In this document: piece by piece, positions 75 to 12,759 of the stretch | Layout: each line of letters starts with the position of its first letter | How positions within the stretch are numbered: the first letter of the stretch is position 1 | The notes under the pieces: generated by a model | Seen by the model: the letters and a program-made list of their open reading frames with translations, nothing else | Told to the model about the DNA's origin: nothing | The model's database searches: none | DNA from: Fidelibacterota bacterium | Lineage (GTDB): Bacteria > Fidelibacterota > Marinisomatia > SCGC-AAA003-L08 > JACNLC01 | Direction: 5' to 3' | Assembly (NCBI GenBank): GCA_013204025.1 | Contig: JABMOW010000147.1 | Coordinates: 1-64,000, forward strand | Length of the DNA stretch: 64,000 nt | Made by a program: the position numbers and the translations under genes

Positions 75-605
75 ATGAATACTCGTATTATATCAATCGC
101 TCTACTAATTTTGTTTGCTATCGCATCCAGATTTGTTCCGCACCCACCAAACTTTACCCCTATTATTGGGGTTGGGTTATTTGCAGGTGCATACATCTCA
201 CGTAGAATATGGGCATTCATTGTTCCACTTCTCATTTTGCTCATTTCTGATGTTGTTTTGGGATTTCACACCACAATGATATGGGTATATGGCTCCATAA
301 TTTTAATCGTTGCGATAGGCATTCTACTATCGAAGAAATCTAAAATTACTTCCATCATCGGCGGTTCGATCTCCGGATCTGTTCTTTTTTATATCGTGAC
401 TAATTTTGGGGTGTGGATAACAGGTGGTGGATTTGCTCATCCCTTATCTTTTCAGGGATTAATGTTATGCTACATTGATGCGATACCCTTTTTTCTGAAC
501 ACTTTATCAAGCACAGTATTGTACTCCGGGATACTCTTTGGAGCCTATGAAATTTTATGCAGAGTTGTGCCTGCTCTTCAATTAACCAAACCTGTGAATG
601 AATAG
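75..605 (+). CDS. DUF6580-like multi-pass membrane protein, candidate transport component
   Basis: A 176-residue, very hydrophobic protein with about five or six predicted membrane helices and almost no soluble domain. Its N-terminal pattern (helix, then a short PHPPNFTPI-type loop, then further helices) resembles the DUF6580 group of putative S-component-like transport proteins; this is recognition from memory. The ATG at 75 has only a weak AGAAAG ribosome site. The gene lies about 100 bp before a plug-less outer-membrane barrel and on the other side of a riboswitch-controlled cobalamin receptor pair, so a role in cobalamin or a related small-molecule uptake is a contextual inference. No riboswitch is visible in the 74 bases upstream. 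No ECF ATPase or T component is next to it. Confidence 0.55.
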   Translation: MNTRIISIALLILFAIASRFVPHPPNFTPIIGVGLFAGAYISRRIWAFIVPLLILLISDVVLGFHTTMIWVYGSIILIVAIGILLSKKSKITSIIGGSISGSVLFYIVTNFGVWITGGGFAHPLSFQGLMLCYIDAIPFFLNTLSSTVLYSGILFGAYEILCRVVPALQLTKPVNE

Positions 606-607
606 GA

Positions 608-634
608 TTGACTTCATCTCTGATCATTCATAAT
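608..634 (+). promoter_or_regulatory. Possible sigma-70-like promoter before the barrel gene
   Basis: TTGACT at 608-613 is followed after 15 bases by CATAAT at 629-634. The spacer is short, so this is a weak candidate. It fits with the barrel gene starting at 710 rather than at the TTG at 608. Confidence 0.25.
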
Positions 635-709
635 CTCAATCATCTGTCCAAAGGTATTACCGGATTTTCAACAAATATCTTTGTGTTATTGGAATCGCAT
701 CTCCGAATT

Positions 710-2206
710 ATGAGTAAATATCTTCTCATTTTTGTCTTAATTGCTTTCGGTAATTCTCAAAATACCGGCGGTTCAATTGAGTTTAATCCAGATCAATTAG
801 GACAGTCTACGTTCTTTATCTCGAATTCAAACCCTTACATCTTTGACGATTTGGAATACCGAACACTTCGATTTGAGGGAAATTTCAGATTGCCCACAGG
901 AAGTACACTTATACCAGATGTACTGTCACATTTTGAAATGGATACATCCCTGACAACATATTTCAACTGGAATCAAGGCGATTATCAATTTCGTCAAATT
1001 CAGCTGGGAATTCAAACACATATCCAGGAAAATAAATCAATAGAGTTGGCTGGATTGAGCAGATCTTTTCCGGGCAGATACTCTCATCTCGGACCTGAAG
1101 GAACTTCCACAGACAATGTGCTTCAAAACTACCTTTTGGGATTCAGAAGAGCTGATGAACACCACGAACTTGAGTTCGATTGGTTTTATCATAAAGAGAA
1201 TACCGGACTGCCTATCGCGGATTTTACTTATTTTAACCGACAAGTTGAGTCATTTCTTATTGGTGGGGCATACAAGTACGTATCAGATAATATTAAAAGT
1301 GAAGTAACCAGTTCTGTTCAGGTATCTAAAGTTCTAAATCAAGGCTGGGTCAGTTTTTGGAATATCCAAAATACCATGAGTAAATGGTTCACAAATACTA
1401 CACAATATTCATTAAATAAGAATCTCGATTATCATTTCAAGGTAAACTATAAAAATCTGGAATTTCAAAACCCAACAGGTGATACACAGGAATTGACCTA
1501 TTCAACGGTCTATAATGGAGTGAAATGGAAAATATCTGAATCGAGTATTTTAACAGCCGGCATCAAATACTCAAACAATTCAAAAATTTCATTTGAATGT
1601 GGTTATCAATTTGCATCCAGAATATTTTTATTTGATCTGCATCGACAATATTTAAACACGTTTTATCACAGTTCCGATCTTCTTGTTAAAACGTCAGGAT
1701 GGTTCGACAATTCTGCAACCATCAGACTTCAGACTGCCGTATTTCAAACGGAAATTACCTCACATCAAATCACTTTTGAAGGAGAAGATGTTTGGATAAT
1801 TAACCCAAAAATTGACCTGACTTTGCCCTGGCTTTCAATATCGTTACAGTCCAGCATTAATTCTGCGGATTCCAGCCTTTTTACAAACTATTCTCAGTAT
1901 AAGGTAAAACTGAGTCCTTATTTGAAAAATAAACCATTCAGACCATTTATTGCAGTTGATGGAATTTATATGAAATCCACGGGTTTTAAAGTGCTCGATT
2001 TATTGACACCTGACCAATTTACCACTATTAACTATGATGAATTTGAACATAGCACACTCAATGCTTCCGTCGGACTATTGTTCGAAAAGTTTGAGATCAG
2101 TTTTAATTGGATCCAGTTTATAGTACCTGTCAGTACCGCCTCTCCATATATCATGCCAATCGAACCTCTGAATTATCTTCAGGTAACCTGGTTATTTACG
2201 GATTAG
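710..2206 (+). CDS. Outer-membrane beta-barrel protein without plug domain
   Basis: About 498 residues from the ATG at 710. That start places a short signal peptide (MSKYLLIFVLIAFGNSQ) at the very N-terminus, whereas the longer frame from TTG 608 would bury it. The mature part is rich in alternating hydrophobic/polar strands and aromatic residues, ending in a hydrophobic strand (TWLFTD), as expected for an outer-membrane barrel of roughly TonB-receptor size. No plug domain or carboxypeptidase-like N-terminal domain is present, so it looks like a porin-type or receptor-barrel-only protein. Its 3' end overlaps the stop of the convergent minus-strand propeller gene by 11 bp. Function is unknown; the position beside the cobalamin locus suggests participation in uptake, as inference only. 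Confidence 0.6.
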   Translation: MSKYLLIFVLIAFGNSQNTGGSIEFNPDQLGQSTFFISNSNPYIFDDLEYRTLRFEGNFRLPTGSTLIPDVLSHFEMDTSLTTYFNWNQGDYQFRQIQLGIQTHIQENKSIELAGLSRSFPGRYSHLGPEGTSTDNVLQNYLLGFRRADEHHELEFDWFYHKENTGLPIADFTYFNRQVESFLIGGAYKYVSDNIKSEVTSSVQVSKVLNQGWVSFWNIQNTMSKWFTNTTQYSLNKNLDYHFKVNYKNLEFQNPTGDTQELTYSTVYNGVKWKISESSILTAGIKYSNNSKISFECGYQFASRIFLFDLHRQYLNTFYHSSDLLVKTSGWFDNSATIRLQTAVFQTEITSHQITFEGEDVWIINPKIDLTLPWLSISLQSSINSADSSLFTNYSQYKVKLSPYLKNKPFRPFIAVDGIYMKSTGFKVLDLLTPDQFTTINYDEFEHSTLNASVGLLFEKFEISFNWIQFIVPVSTASPYIMPIEPLNYLQVTWLFTD

Positions 2207-3371
2207 CCAGGATCTGATCTACCCAGTAAACGACATCCATAATATCAATCACTCCATCTGAATTACTGTCGGCGCGACAGAATTCATCTTCAAGTAATTC
2301 AGTAGAGCCCAGAATGTGAGAGACCATCTGTACCAGATCTAAAATATCAAGGGATGTATCATTATTGGTATCTCCTGTTGGTTCACAGGGTGTAGTGTGT
2401 TGATAAAATGCAAACGAACCAGGAATGGCACCTACTTGAAATGAGGCGATTTCATTTCCGAAAAAATCGATGATTTTAACATCGTCCGGAGCAACGAAAT
2501 TTGATAACCCAAGATAAAGAAAATTCTGGTAATTACTCATTGAATACAGTCCGGGGAAACCACCCAAATGACTTTCAGATATGGGGGAGAGGTTGTTATC
2601 CAATCTGATAATCCCGTTATTATAAATACGGTAAACACTGCTCTGGTAATAAATAATATCTGTCCCAAACAAGGTGGATTGACCGTAGTCATTGATGTCA
2701 ATAGCACCGGTTGACAAATTTATTTTGGAGGTCGCTGCGTATGAATTCCATGAGGCATCGTAATAAGTACTGGATACGATGAGCTCCTGATTGATTAATA
2801 TTAAGGGACCGGGACCGTCTGCCACCTGATATTCTGTGATGACGGATTCCGTTTCTGGATCAATGACAACGATCAGGTTTGAGGAAGTCCAGTCCGGATT
2901 CATGGTGATGCTGGCATACAAAAATTCGCCGTCCGTCACGATGTCTTCAGGCAAACCCGAGACAGCGATATTGCCGATAATGGATAGAGTCGTAATATCC
3001 AAAATAGCGATGCTATTTGTGTACCATTCCGTAACGTATCCTTTGCCATTTAGAACAACCATTTCGCGAGGTCCGGAAAAATTCATATTAATTGATTGCA
3101 GGTAAGTCAAATTACCTGAAGTTTGGATATCAAAAACTTCGATCGTTCCGGTTCCGTTCATGATCGCATATAATCTATCCTCGTGGATTGTCAAAGATTG
3201 CCCAGTATCTCCCAGTGGATTTTCCCCGACCCCGGATATATCATTCTGTTCATCGATTCGCCAAAGTGTGGAATTCCCCACCGAAAAATTCCCTTCGCAT
3301 AGAATGTATGCAATTGGTTGACCTGTCAGGATTGCTGTAAATAGTAAAAGGGCGATGATTTTCGAAATCAT
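2196..3371 (-). CDS. BtuG-like beta-propeller protein with C-terminal dockerin-type repeats
   Basis: 391 residues. A signal peptide (about residues 1-17) is followed by a YncE/DUF5074-type beta-propeller (about 20-325) whose opening (ILCEGNFSVGNSTLWRID, then LGDTGQSLTI and LYAIMNGTGTIEVFD) strongly recalls BtuG, the surface cobalamin-binding propeller that partners BtuB in Bacteroidetes. The last 65 residues hold two EF-hand-like dockerin type I repeats (DTNNDTSLDILD and DSNSDGVIDIMD), which should bind calcium. It starts 8 bp after the TonB-dependent receptor and so should share the cobalamin riboswitch. Known BtuG proteins are lipoproteins; here there is no lipobox, and the dockerin tail is the unusual part. 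No type IX sorting domain is visible after the repeats. Confidence 0.7.
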   Translation of the reverse strand: MISKIIALLLFTAILTGQPIAYILCEGNFSVGNSTLWRIDEQNDISGVGENPLGDTGQSLTIHEDRLYAIMNGTGTIEVFDIQTSGNLTYLQSINMNFSGPREMVVLNGKGYVTEWYTNSIAILDITTLSIIGNIAVSGLPEDIVTDGEFLYASITMNPDWTSSNLIVVIDPETESVITEYQVADGPGPLILINQELIVSSTYYDASWNSYAATSKINLSTGAIDINDYGQSTLFGTDIIYYQSSVYRIYNNGIIRLDNNLSPISESHLGGFPGLYSMSNYQNFLYLGLSNFVAPDDVKIIDFFGNEIASFQVGAIPGSFAFYQHTTPCEPTGDTNNDTSLDILDLVQMVSHILGSTELLEDEFCRADSNSDGVIDIMDVVYWVDQILANP

Positions 3372-3379
3372 TGTTTTCC

Positions 3380-5488
3380 TTATTTTCGTGTTATGGTTGA
3401 TTTGAAATTAAATGAACGCCCTGGTTCGGGGTATCCGTGAATGGATTGGTACTGAATATCTTGCAGATTGTGGATCGTAAATACATATGAGACGTTCGCG
3501 TATTTCATCCTGAACTCTTTTGATAAACCCAAATTTATTAGACTGTACGCAGGGATTGTTTGGTCCTTGGGATAGTCATAAAAAAATACTTGTTTCGAAA
3601 TGAACTTAAAATCAGTAGTCAGAATAAATCCTTCAAAAAGTGTACTGTGATTTATCGAAAAAATATACTTGGGGGAATACCGGAGTGATTTTGATTCCAG
3701 GTCAGCATTTCCGGGAGAGTGATAATACGTATCATTTTTTAACAAACTAACAGCTACTCGAAACAGTGGATTTGTCTGGTATGTCCAATACAAATTATAA
3801 CCGAAAGACTCCGCATTAGGAATATTTTCAGGTGACCAAACAATTCCGTTATTCATTGGTGTCCATTGGATCAGGTCATCATATTTAATAAAGAACACAT
3901 TCAAATCCAGGCGTGTATTATGAACATCAAATTTGTTTCTGAAACTAATATTGAGAGATCGCTCTATTTTTAAATTTGGGTTTCCAAAGGGAATCCAGTA
4001 GAGGTCATTAAATCCCGGGCGTTTATAATTGTTGGATAAGGTCAGCGAAGATTGTTGCCACGACGTACCTTGGTGGAAAATCAACGTACCTTCACCTGCA
4101 GCAAGACTCTGATGATGTTTTTCAAATTCAGAACGAAACACAAATACTAATTCAAACTTTGAAAGTTCAATATCCAAGTCTATGATTGAAGACATGATAG
4201 TTCTAGTGGTATCAATTGAATTTGTACTTTTACTGTTTTCAGATCTGATTTTTAACTGATATCCCAGATCGTGGTGATTTGTGCTGATAATAAAGTCAGA
4301 TGTACGTAGTCGATGATGCGCTGATACTGGAGGTCCGGGTCCAGGTGGATTATTATAATCTATGATATTTAATTTTTGATTCCACTGAAATGTAATCGGT
4401 GCTTTGTGTATTTCAAAAGAAACAATCTGCAAACGATCATTCATTTGCGCAATATCACGACCTGAATAAATGTATCCTGATAAAAGTCTGATATTTTTTA
4501 CATCCAGTACCTGTGCTTTTATCAAAATTGAATCGGGAAGTATTACTTTATTGATAAAATAATAATACCGTTGATCGATCGAATTTTCGAAGTAATCAAA
4601 TTCTATCCCGTTCTCTTTCCATTTATATAAGCCATCATATCTGAAACGTCCCGCAGAAGCCGAGGAAGAGAACCAATTTTTCTTAAAGGAAAGTTGGATT
4701 ATATCATCATTCAAATTGTAACTGCCCGCCGTGTGAGAGATAAAGTTTTTCCCATGTTTCGGGGTTAGATTGATCACACCTGTGATAGCGGATGACCCAA
4801 ATCGAGCAGATGAACCCTGTGGATAAAAACTCATATTTTCCAAAAGACTGTGCGGAATTTGTGAAATATCAGCGCTTCCATTTTGTTCGTTATTTAGCAT
4901 CACGCCGTCCAGTAGAATTGCCATTCGGTCTGCCTGGCCACCAAATAGAGAAACAGTACTGACACCCGCGGGACCGCCATAAGATTTCGTGATAATCCCC
5001 GGGAGTTGATTGATTGCGTCTGCAGTTGAAATTGATGATTCCACTTGAACGGTATTAAGTGTAAAACTACCGGAAGGAAACCCGATATCAGACGGGTTAC
5101 GGTATTTTCCTTCAATGTGAACTGGTGAGAAGGGATAAACAACTGGCTCCAAACTAATGACAATGGATTGATCTGTCTGAGTAATTTCGATTAGTTGAGT
5201 ATGATAATTTGGGCGAGAAACGATTAATAAATTGATTTCCATTAAACCAATTTCGGATAACTCTTTCTTTGGGAGAGAAATTAAAAACTGGCCATGAGAA
5301 TTCGTGACTACTTCAAAACCATCCGAGGATTTTATGATACAATCCTGCAAAGGTATTTGAGTAATTGAATCAACCACCAGACCTGAATATTCAACAGCCA
5401 TTAAAAAGGTAAGTGATATGGTCACTAAAAGCAGAATAGCTAACGGGGGTTTGAATCCGACAACGGTTCGATAGAAATAACGAATCAT
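3380..5488 (-). CDS. btuB: TonB-dependent outer-membrane receptor, probable cobalamin receptor (BtuB-like)
   Basis: 702 residues: hydrophobic export segment (about 12-31), a carboxypeptidase-regulatory-like beta-sandwich (about 33-110, with the typical GQFLISLP strand), a plug domain (about 125-245; DAINQLPGII, ILLDGVMLNNEQNG and the GSSARFGSSAITGVINL end), then a long beta-barrel. The family takes up ligands across the outer membrane using TonB energy. Substrate assignment rests on the cobalamin riboswitch directly upstream and on the BtuG-like partner 8 bp downstream, not on barrel residues. Cobalamin repression by premature termination is the expected control. The barrel is divergent, so sequence alone would only say TonB-dependent receptor. 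Confidence 0.8.
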   Translation of the reverse strand: MIRYFYRTVVGFKPPLAILLLVTISLTFLMAVEYSGLVVDSITQIPLQDCIIKSSDGFEVVTNSHGQFLISLPKKELSEIGLMEINLLIVSRPNYHTQLIEITQTDQSIVISLEPVVYPFSPVHIEGKYRNPSDIGFPSGSFTLNTVQVESSISTADAINQLPGIITKSYGGPAGVSTVSLFGGQADRMAILLDGVMLNNEQNGSADISQIPHSLLENMSFYPQGSSARFGSSAITGVINLTPKHGKNFISHTAGSYNLNDDIIQLSFKKNWFSSSASAGRFRYDGLYKWKENGIEFDYFENSIDQRYYYFINKVILPDSILIKAQVLDVKNIRLLSGYIYSGRDIAQMNDRLQIVSFEIHKAPITFQWNQKLNIIDYNNPPGPGPPVSAHHRLRTSDFIISTNHHDLGYQLKIRSENSKSTNSIDTTRTIMSSIIDLDIELSKFELVFVFRSEFEKHHQSLAAGEGTLIFHQGTSWQQSSLTLSNNYKRPGFNDLYWIPFGNPNLKIERSLNISFRNKFDVHNTRLDLNVFFIKYDDLIQWTPMNNGIVWSPENIPNAESFGYNLYWTYQTNPLFRVAVSLLKNDTYYHSPGNADLESKSLRYSPKYIFSINHSTLFEGFILTTDFKFISKQVFFYDYPKDQTIPAYSLINLGLSKEFRMKYANVSYVFTIHNLQDIQYQSIHGYPEPGRSFNFKSTITRK

Positions 5489-5522
5489 CGTACCGATGTT
5501 ACTTTCTGTCGATCTAGATTAA

Positions 5523-5558
5523 GAAATAAAAAACCCATTTGGTTAAAAATCAAATGGG
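5523..5558 (-). terminator. Intrinsic terminator of the cobalamin riboswitch expression platform
   Basis: On the minus strand an 8-bp stem CCCATTTG/CAAATGGG (5551-5558 with 5534-5541) encloses a 9-base loop and is followed by a T-rich run (5523-5533). It sits between the aptamer and the receptor start codon at 5488, about 35 bases before the ATG, the right place for ligand-dependent termination. Confidence 0.8.
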
Positions 5559-5695
5559 CGAAGAATGGGAACTTCAATTCGCACCTCATTTCGCGAAGGT
5601 ACCTGAAATTGGAAGTATCTGGCTTATCTATCAAGATTTACAGTTGCGCGTCAGCTCCGGACTCTCACCGGAATTCCTTCCTTAAAAACAGATGT
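5559..5695 (-). ncRNA. Cobalamin riboswitch aptamer
   Basis: Read on the minus strand, the region contains the class hallmarks in order: GGAATTCCGGTGAGAGTCCG, then GCTGACGCGCAACTGTAA (5638-5655), then the B12-box core AAGCCAGATACTTCC (5611-5625). A later hairpin with stem GCGAA/TTCGC (5558-5582) is in the place of the kissing-loop stem. It is followed immediately by a terminator. Expected behaviour: adenosylcobalamin or a related corrinoid turns off the receptor and propeller genes. Confidence 0.92.
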
Positions 5696-5752
5696 TGATT
5701 TTCAAAAATCGTTCATTATGAACTGATAGTAATTTACGTCATCAAAATTATC

Positions 5753-5780
5753 ATAATATGCAGATAAATTATCAGATCAA
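5753..5780 (-). promoter_or_regulatory. Candidate promoter of the riboswitch-controlled operon
   Basis: On the minus strand TTGATC (5775-5780) and TATTAT (5753-5758) are separated by 16 bases, a reasonable sigma-70-type arrangement. Transcription would begin about 50 bases before the aptamer. The rest of the 450-bp gap between the receptor and trxA (5781-5938) shows no other convincing element. Confidence 0.4.
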
Positions 5781-11881: not shown

Positions 11882-12759
11882 AAACAGGAACATTTGAAGT
11901 TAAAAAAGGCCTAGCTGAAATGCTTAAAGGTGGTGTGATAATGGATGTGACCACACCCGAACAAGCCAAAATTGCTGAAGATGCAGGCGCTGTTGCAGTA
12001 ATGGCTTTGGAGAGAATTCCCGCGGATATACGGAGAGACGGTGGAATTGCCCGGGCATCAGATCCCAAAATGATCAAAGAAATACAAGCGATAGTGTCAA
12101 TTCCTGTAATGGCAAAATGTAGGATTGGACACTTTGCAGAAGCTCAAATACTTGAAGCGCTGGGAGTCGATTTTATTGATGAAAGCGAAGTATTGACGCC
12201 TGCAGATGAATCCAATCATATCTGGAAGCAGGATTTTAAAATTCCTTTTGTATGTGGTGCGAGGGATTTGGGTGAAGCTCTTCGACGGATTGGCGAAGGT
12301 GCTGCAATGATTAGAACAAAAGGTGAGGCTGGTTCTGGAAATATCGTTGAAGCGGTTAGACATATGAGAACTATTCAGAACGATATGAAACGTTTGACTA
12401 CATTAGGATACGATCAACTAATGGCTGAAGCGAAGAAATTAGGCGCTCCTCTTGAATTGATACTGGAAATATCCAAAACGGGAAAGCTACCTGTGCCAAA
12501 CTTTAGTGCGGGTGGAATTGCAACTCCGGCAGATGTTTCACTTATGATGCAACTGGGGGCAGAGTCAGTTTTTGTAGGTTCAGGGATTTTCAAATCTGAG
12601 GATCCTGCACCCAGAGCAAGAGCCATCGTAGAAGCCGTAACCTATTATAATGACTTCCTGAAATTAGCCGAAATTTCAGAAGGTTTGGGAAGCCCAATGA
12701 AGGGCTTGGACATAAAGGATATTCCCGAAAATCAGAGAATGCAGGAAAGAGGCTGGTAA
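11878..12759 (+). CDS. pdxS: Pyridoxal 5'-phosphate synthase, PdxS subunit
   Basis: 293 residues. Conserved segments include [40 protein letters not shown], the catalytic-lysine strand [10 protein letters not shown] and the second-lysine region [12 protein letters not shown]. It condenses ribose 5-phosphate, glyceraldehyde 3-phosphate and ammonia into PLP. The glutaminase partner pdxT begins 2 bp later. Confidence 0.97.

Follow-up and report, generated by a model that had tools for sequence, protein, structure and literature searches.

How is a BtuG lid kept at the cell surface when it lacks the lipid anchor that characterizes BtuG proteins? In Bacteroides, the N-terminal lipid anchor of BtuG together with its linker forms the hinge of the lid over BtuB (PMC10404256). 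The question is raised by a 64,000-nucleotide stretch of contig JABMOW010000147.1 (hereafter the window) in the genome of a Fidelibacterota bacterium (GCA_013204025.1; hereafter G000), in which a cobalamin riboswitch, a TonB-dependent receptor gene and a beta-propeller gene follow one another on the minus strand and the propeller protein ends in a dockerin. BtuG has been found only in Bacteroidetes in 313 gut genomes (PMC6143338), and lipoprotein-capped TonB receptors seem exclusive to that phylum (PMC10404256). We found no literature report of BtuG for the Ca. Neomarinimicrobiota (Fidelibacterota). As judged from sequence comparison and predicted structure, the receptor and propeller of the window are a true BtuB-BtuG corrinoid uptake pair that would bind B12. 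With moderate confidence, we hypothesize that pairing of its dockerin with a cohesin keeps this BtuG at the surface, the cohesin proteins themselves being anchored through the type IX secretion system (T9SS), and that BtuG would cap BtuB from there.

The riboswitch match spans the full length of the RF00174 model (positions 1-189) at 42.5 bits, compared with a gathering threshold of 31.5, and is the sole Rfam match within the window. The ATG of the propeller gene lies 8 bp past the stop codon of the receptor. The nearest solved structures to the receptor are BtuB3 and BtuB2 of B. theta (8p97, 8p98 and 8bmx; E 1e-23 to 1e-21), with E. coli BtuB ranking behind these among its PDB matches. The receptor is also matched by the NCBIfam model TonB-B12, but far under the equivalog cut-off of that model; its plug, its barrel and its closest kinship to BtuB place it with the Bacteroides-type BtuB receptors. 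A phmmer search with the propeller protein retrieved BtuG1, BtuG2 and BtuG3 chains at 1e-12 to 2e-6, a profile built from 51 homologous sequences of relatives matched BtuG2 at 2e-37, and the motifs EGNF..N.SL, LGD..QS, NNS/NG and PR are common to the propeller and BtuG. When the predicted structure was compared with the PDB using Foldseek, ranks 1-16 were occupied only by BtuG or its B. uniformis (BACUNI) orthologue (E 2e-20 to 1e-16), after which the E-value dropped to 1e-12, four orders of magnitude weaker. Template modelling (TM) scores on the target were ~0.7-0.83, except for the BtuG1 chain 8blw_B (0.41), which is longer and has two domains.

The protein therefore has the BtuG-fold propeller and the gene position beside btuB under a cobalamin riboswitch that are expected of BtuG. 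It is not recognizable as a surface lipoprotein, since a search of the window BtuG for a lipobox cysteine found none. Cys25 (in LCEGN) was considered as a lipobox residue and rejected: it belongs to the first strand of the propeller and does not vary even among homologues that have a separate lipobox cysteine upstream. Scans with Pfam and NCBIfam likewise did not find a T9SS C-terminal sorting domain (TIGR04183/PF18962) in the protein. Because the lipobox is absent, we class it as a homologue of BtuG with a new kind of anchoring and not as a lipoprotein BtuG. The preliminary description of this DNA, made from the letters alone, had placed a cobalamin riboswitch ahead of a TonB receptor with a BtuG-like propeller gene 8 bp further on, and had noted a plain signal peptide instead of the BtuG lipid anchor; the riboswitch score, the open reading frame (ORF) coordinates, the structural comparison (16 of the 16 best PDB matches being BtuG) and the reassignment of Cys25 to the propeller all bear this out.

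At its C-terminus the window BtuG carries a dockerin. PF00404 scores the tail at 26 bits (cut-off 22.9), and a profile of the dockerins of G000 itself gives 70 bits. Both calcium loops are intact and spaced 34 residues apart, so that the tail has the two repeats with 12-residue calcium loops of a type I dockerin, and AF2 predicts three C-terminal helices at residues 343-353, 361-367 and 377-389. Two intact loops spaced 34-35 residues are found alike in the BtuGs of G000 and of two other members of its family, G001 and G003, although overall identity among the three is 47-49%. A chance dockerin match was rejected on the strength of the two loops, the score with the own-genome profile and the conservation in G001 and G003. 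The recognition positions in most C-terminal dockerins of G000 are V/I-L, uniform in both repeats, and in BtuG they are I-L and I-M.

The same module is found across the genome. G000 holds 112 dockerin matches, 104 of which were examined; 62 of these end 0-11 residues short of the stop codon, the next one being 49 residues away, giving at least 62 dockerin-ended proteins. Most C-terminal-dockerin proteins with a complete N-terminal side look Sec-exported (43 of 53), with a lipobox in a single one. Among the proteins with such a tail are gingipain-like C25 peptidases, a PAD-type deiminase, subtilases, GH18 and M14 proteins and esterases. In the C25 peptidases and the deiminase, the dockerin is found in place of a T9SS domain (L182:566-5068, L175:14532-17381, L184:402-1976). 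Orthologues of the GH18 protein have a dockerin end in 8/8 dockerin-rich genomes and a T9SS domain in 13/14 dockerin-poor genomes (p 3e-5), suggesting that dockerin tails replace T9SS domains more widely than in BtuG. A swap of the GH18 type was not seen among PAD_porph homologues, nearly all of which are dockerin-ended. The dockerin tail is a general surface or secretion module of this lineage and not an invention of BtuG. G000 also encodes SprA and at least 67 T9SS C-terminal domains. In 19 of its proteins (for instance, L156, L157 and L172) the tail consists of a dockerin, a ~100-residue domain, here called X, and a T9SS domain. No Pfam family was found for the X domain. HHalign gave X against cohesin a probability of 78-81%, exceeding the controls (T9SS domain, dockerin and BtuG; 0.7-5%), and we therefore tentatively regard X as cohesin-like, possibly a reduced cohesin. 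A joint alignment put cohesins onto the X of dockerin-X tails, and the two were separated before folding.

A dockerin tail calls for a cohesin. With Pfam, only one cohesin was detected in G000, below threshold (23.1 versus 24.1 bits), and when this domain, on contig C111, was modelled it adopted a cohesin fold, with 6kgf, 2xdh and 1aoh at TM scores on the target of 0.63-0.67. The Pfam search alone would imply almost no partner, a view that was overturned by a lineage profile: built from the cohesins of G000's family and order, and so biased to them, this profile revealed 31 cohesin-like modules in G000. Six of them lie in one secreted protein of 3,886 residues that ends in a T9SS domain and is missed by the Pfam cohesin model (L234; contig C96, ORF start base 12441), meaning that the same genome encodes a cohesin-repeat protein with surface attachment, as in cellulosome-like systems. 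Comparably large cohesin-bearing T9SS proteins were observed in G001, G003, G004 and G005. Two further G000 proteins of 262 residues each consist of a signal peptide, one cohesin-like module and a T9SS domain (C70:30007-30327, L237; C77:31344-31715, L236), and relatives of the same size in G001 and G004 exceed the Pfam cut-off. These small proteins resemble minimal surface anchors and have size-alike relatives across the order. Among the genomes compared, which are incomplete, counts of dockerins and cohesin-like modules are positively correlated (rho 0.77 across 60 genomes; 0.79 across 13 family means).

We next consider how BtuG is anchored in relatives. A single BtuG used as query against the genome contigs gave no match; relatives were recovered when an alignment of 11 BtuG sequences served as the query. 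BtuG was found in dozens of Ca. Neomarinimicrobiota genomes, usually adjoining BtuB, and the named relatives are mostly metagenome-assembled genomes (MAGs) of this phylum (Marinimicrobia; Fidelibacterota in GTDB), two of them with the same architecture as the window (JAADGM010000001 and JABHXA010000002). The receptor gene adjoins BtuG in most relatives that retain it, and a cobalamin or AdoCbl (adenosylcobalamin) riboswitch was present at 15/15 of the relatives' BtuG loci scanned. The commonest form has a lipobox and no tail, at ~25/59 BtuGs, an approximate count that is probably low because the pattern used for automatic detection overlooks some genuine lipoboxes. A plain signal peptide is combined with a T9SS domain in G002, a member of G000's family, and in several others, T9SS domains being present on the BtuGs of G059, G072, G081, G088 and G096 and of named MAGs as well; L216 has both a lipobox and a T9SS domain; and in G025 and G030 the tail is a dockerin, X and a T9SS domain. 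A dockerin as the sole tail was found only in G000, G001 and G003. Since T9SS sorting domains, too, are used by BtuG relatives within this phylum, the dockerin is one among several alternatives to the lipid anchor on BtuG.

On the propeller tree, the distribution of tail types needs at least 18 changes, with the dockerin group too weakly resolved for counting origins. The loci of G000, G001 and G003 share their flanks with those of G008, G011 and G031, with trxA on one side and a 532-residue ORF and a DUF6580 gene on the other; at this syntenic site in the latter three genomes BtuG is lipid-anchored and tail-less. BtuGs with a dockerin are confined to dockerin-rich genomes (5/5), and T9SS-tailed BtuGs to dockerin-poor genomes (6/6; Fisher p 0.002, phylogeny ignored). 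G002, with its T9SS-tailed BtuG, has few of both partners (7 dockerins and 3 cohesin-like modules). We also observed that many streamlined genomes of family f3 have an orphan BtuG with no BtuB gene beside it (L099 6000-7860, L068 4368-5549, L073 and L081), with a cobalamin riboswitch directly ahead of it in L099, L068 and L073; BtuB matches in most f3 genomes are none or weak.

In the mechanism that we favor, B12 would repress the BtuB-BtuG pair through the riboswitch, and BtuG would cross the inner membrane via Sec with its plain signal peptide. The propeller may then cap BtuB as in Bacteroides, while the calcium-loaded dockerin would bind a cohesin-like module on a protein that is both exported and anchored by T9SS. 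Candidate carriers are the 3,886-residue protein with six cohesins and the small 262-residue proteins. BtuG might pass the outer membrane docked to T9SS cargo, or perhaps alone or via recognition of its dockerin. The preliminary description had suggested a different way of being held at the surface, for example through a cohesin-like partner, or secretion, had read two dockerin-type calcium repeats at the end of the protein and had pointed to a cohesin search of the genome. For the last ~60 residues the profile, calcium loops and predicted helices agree on a dockerin, and the search was positive once the lineage-specific profile was used. We regard the suggestion as supported, with physical docking as a prediction. 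Several observations weigh against cohesin-mediated anchoring. The AF2 confidence of the dockerin region is modest (pLDDT 60-70), Pfam yields a single sub-threshold cohesin and the profile that yields more is biased to the lineage, although it counts few in G002 of the same family, and within families the correlation between dockerin and cohesin counts is not significant. The BtuG of L219 has neither lipobox nor tail, suggesting that BtuG may stay on BtuB without an anchor. Family f3 is dockerin-rich and mostly retains lipid-anchored BtuG, so the dockerin tail is an option, not a rule, even in dockerin-rich genomes.

The swap in the GH18 orthologues, the dockerin on typical T9SS cargo (C25 gingipain-like, PAD_porph and subtilase proteins) where a T9SS domain would sit, and the presence of T9SS in G000 could also be explained if the C-terminal dockerin were itself a secretion signal for T9SS or another outer-membrane exporter, with cohesin pairing secondary or absent. 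We consider this rather unlikely, as dockerins and the Ig-like T9SS domain have unrelated folds, relatives rich in T9SS yet poor in dockerins exist, the many G000 proteins with both a dockerin and a T9SS domain would be redundant, and cohesin-like modules expand along with the dockerins. Alternatively, the dockerin may be a passenger gained as tails spread through the genome, with BtuG held solely by its contact with BtuB. The breadth of the tail in G000, the anchorless BtuG of L219 and the great stability of BtuBG complexes (PMC10404256) would fit such a history; however, both calcium loops have been preserved in each of the three family members, divergent as these are, and the tail replaces the lipid anchor instead of being added to it, making a mere passenger improbable. 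Less probable still is that BtuG is released to catch B12 in soluble or matrix-bound form, with the dockerin fixing it to extracellular material and not to the producing cell. The plain signal peptide without lipid or T9SS anchor and the riboswitch-controlled BtuGs without adjoining BtuB in some members of the order are compatible with release, yet the G000 gene is immediately downstream of BtuB, the solved BtuBG interface measures 3463 A2 (PMC10404256), and a diluted public lid would be of little gain to its producer.

Features of the B12 locus and its neighbors in the window
Feature	Position	Strand	Evidence
Cobalamin riboswitch aptamer (RF00174), upstream of receptor gene	5593..5722	-	cmscan 42.5 bits, E 2.4e-7
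BtuB-like TonB-dependent receptor, 702 aa	3380..5488	-	Pfam Plug and TonB_dep_Rec above cut-off
Receptor plug domain, residues 147-238	4775..5050	-	PF07715, E 3e-12
Receptor beta-barrel, C-terminal part, residues 435-674	3467..4186	-	PF00593, E 7e-15
BtuG-like protein, 391 aa, 8 bp after receptor gene	2196..3371	-	phmmer, profile, AF2, Foldseek
Signal peptide without lipobox, ~residues 1-17, probable cleavage site	3321..3371	-	sequence reading, hydropathy rule
BtuG beta-propeller, residues 20-324	2400..3314	-	AF2 pLDDT ~97; Foldseek top 16 all BtuG
C-terminal type I dockerin, residues 333-391	2199..2375	-	PF00404; own-genome dockerin profile; AF2 helices
Dockerin calcium loop 1, DTNNDTSLDILD, residues 334-345	2337..2372	-	pattern scan
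Dockerin calcium loop 2, DSNSDGVIDIMD, residues 368-379	2235..2270	-	pattern scan
532-aa protein, convergent to BtuG	608..2206	+	
DUF6580 membrane protein gene, convergent to BtuG	75..605	+	

Two of the neighboring genes are retained next to the B12 locus in several genomes. One encodes the 532-residue protein, for which no family match was found, and the other the DUF6580 membrane protein, which could be an inner-membrane component of corrinoid uptake.

The window system has in common with the Bacteroides BtuBG systems (BtuG1/2/3 with BtuB1/2/3) the riboswitch-controlled btuB-btuG operon, the propeller fold, the core motifs and the kinship of its receptor to BtuB. It differs in belonging to another phylum and in that a C-terminal dockerin replaces the N-terminal lipid anchor. 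BtuG1 likewise joins a BtuG propeller to an extra C-terminal domain, BtuH, but BtuH is a B12-binding domain and BtuG1 has been described as one of the surface lipoproteins (PMC10404256), whereas the tail described here is a predicted docking module. An arrangement of dockerins and a T9SS scaffold has been proposed for the cellulosome-like system of Ca. Stygibacter (Cloacimonadota), where secreted C-terminal-dockerin proteins similarly occur with a large cohesin-repeat protein bearing a T9SS C-terminal domain (PMC8542988). There the tail is on degradative enzymes; in G000 the lid of a vitamin-uptake system carries it as well, and there are in addition small T9SS proteins with a single cohesin. 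These 262-residue proteins would be anchored by a T9SS domain in a diderm organism. In this they differ from the clostridial surface anchors of the OlpA/OlpC type, which similarly combine one cohesin with a surface-anchoring module.

More broadly, it is plausible, though by no means certain, that over much of the surface proteome of this marine phylum dockerin tails have taken the place of T9SS sorting domains and lipid anchors. The tails would plug into a small number of cohesin scaffolds anchored by T9SS, with BtuG as one plug-in part. Cohesin proteins exported by T9SS might then even bring docked dockerin cargo across the outer membrane. The lineage cohesins explain why cohesin counts at the level of Pfam mislead here. 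Exchangeable anchors make it possible to test whether the anchor of a lid is interchangeable and whether dockerin-cohesin pairing is able to replace T9SS sorting. In contrast to accounts that restrict it to Bacteroidetes, the BtuB-BtuG pair occurs widely in a second phylum, marine and for the most part uncultured, in which one lid appears to be displayed in three ways: by a lipid, by a T9SS domain or by a dockerin.

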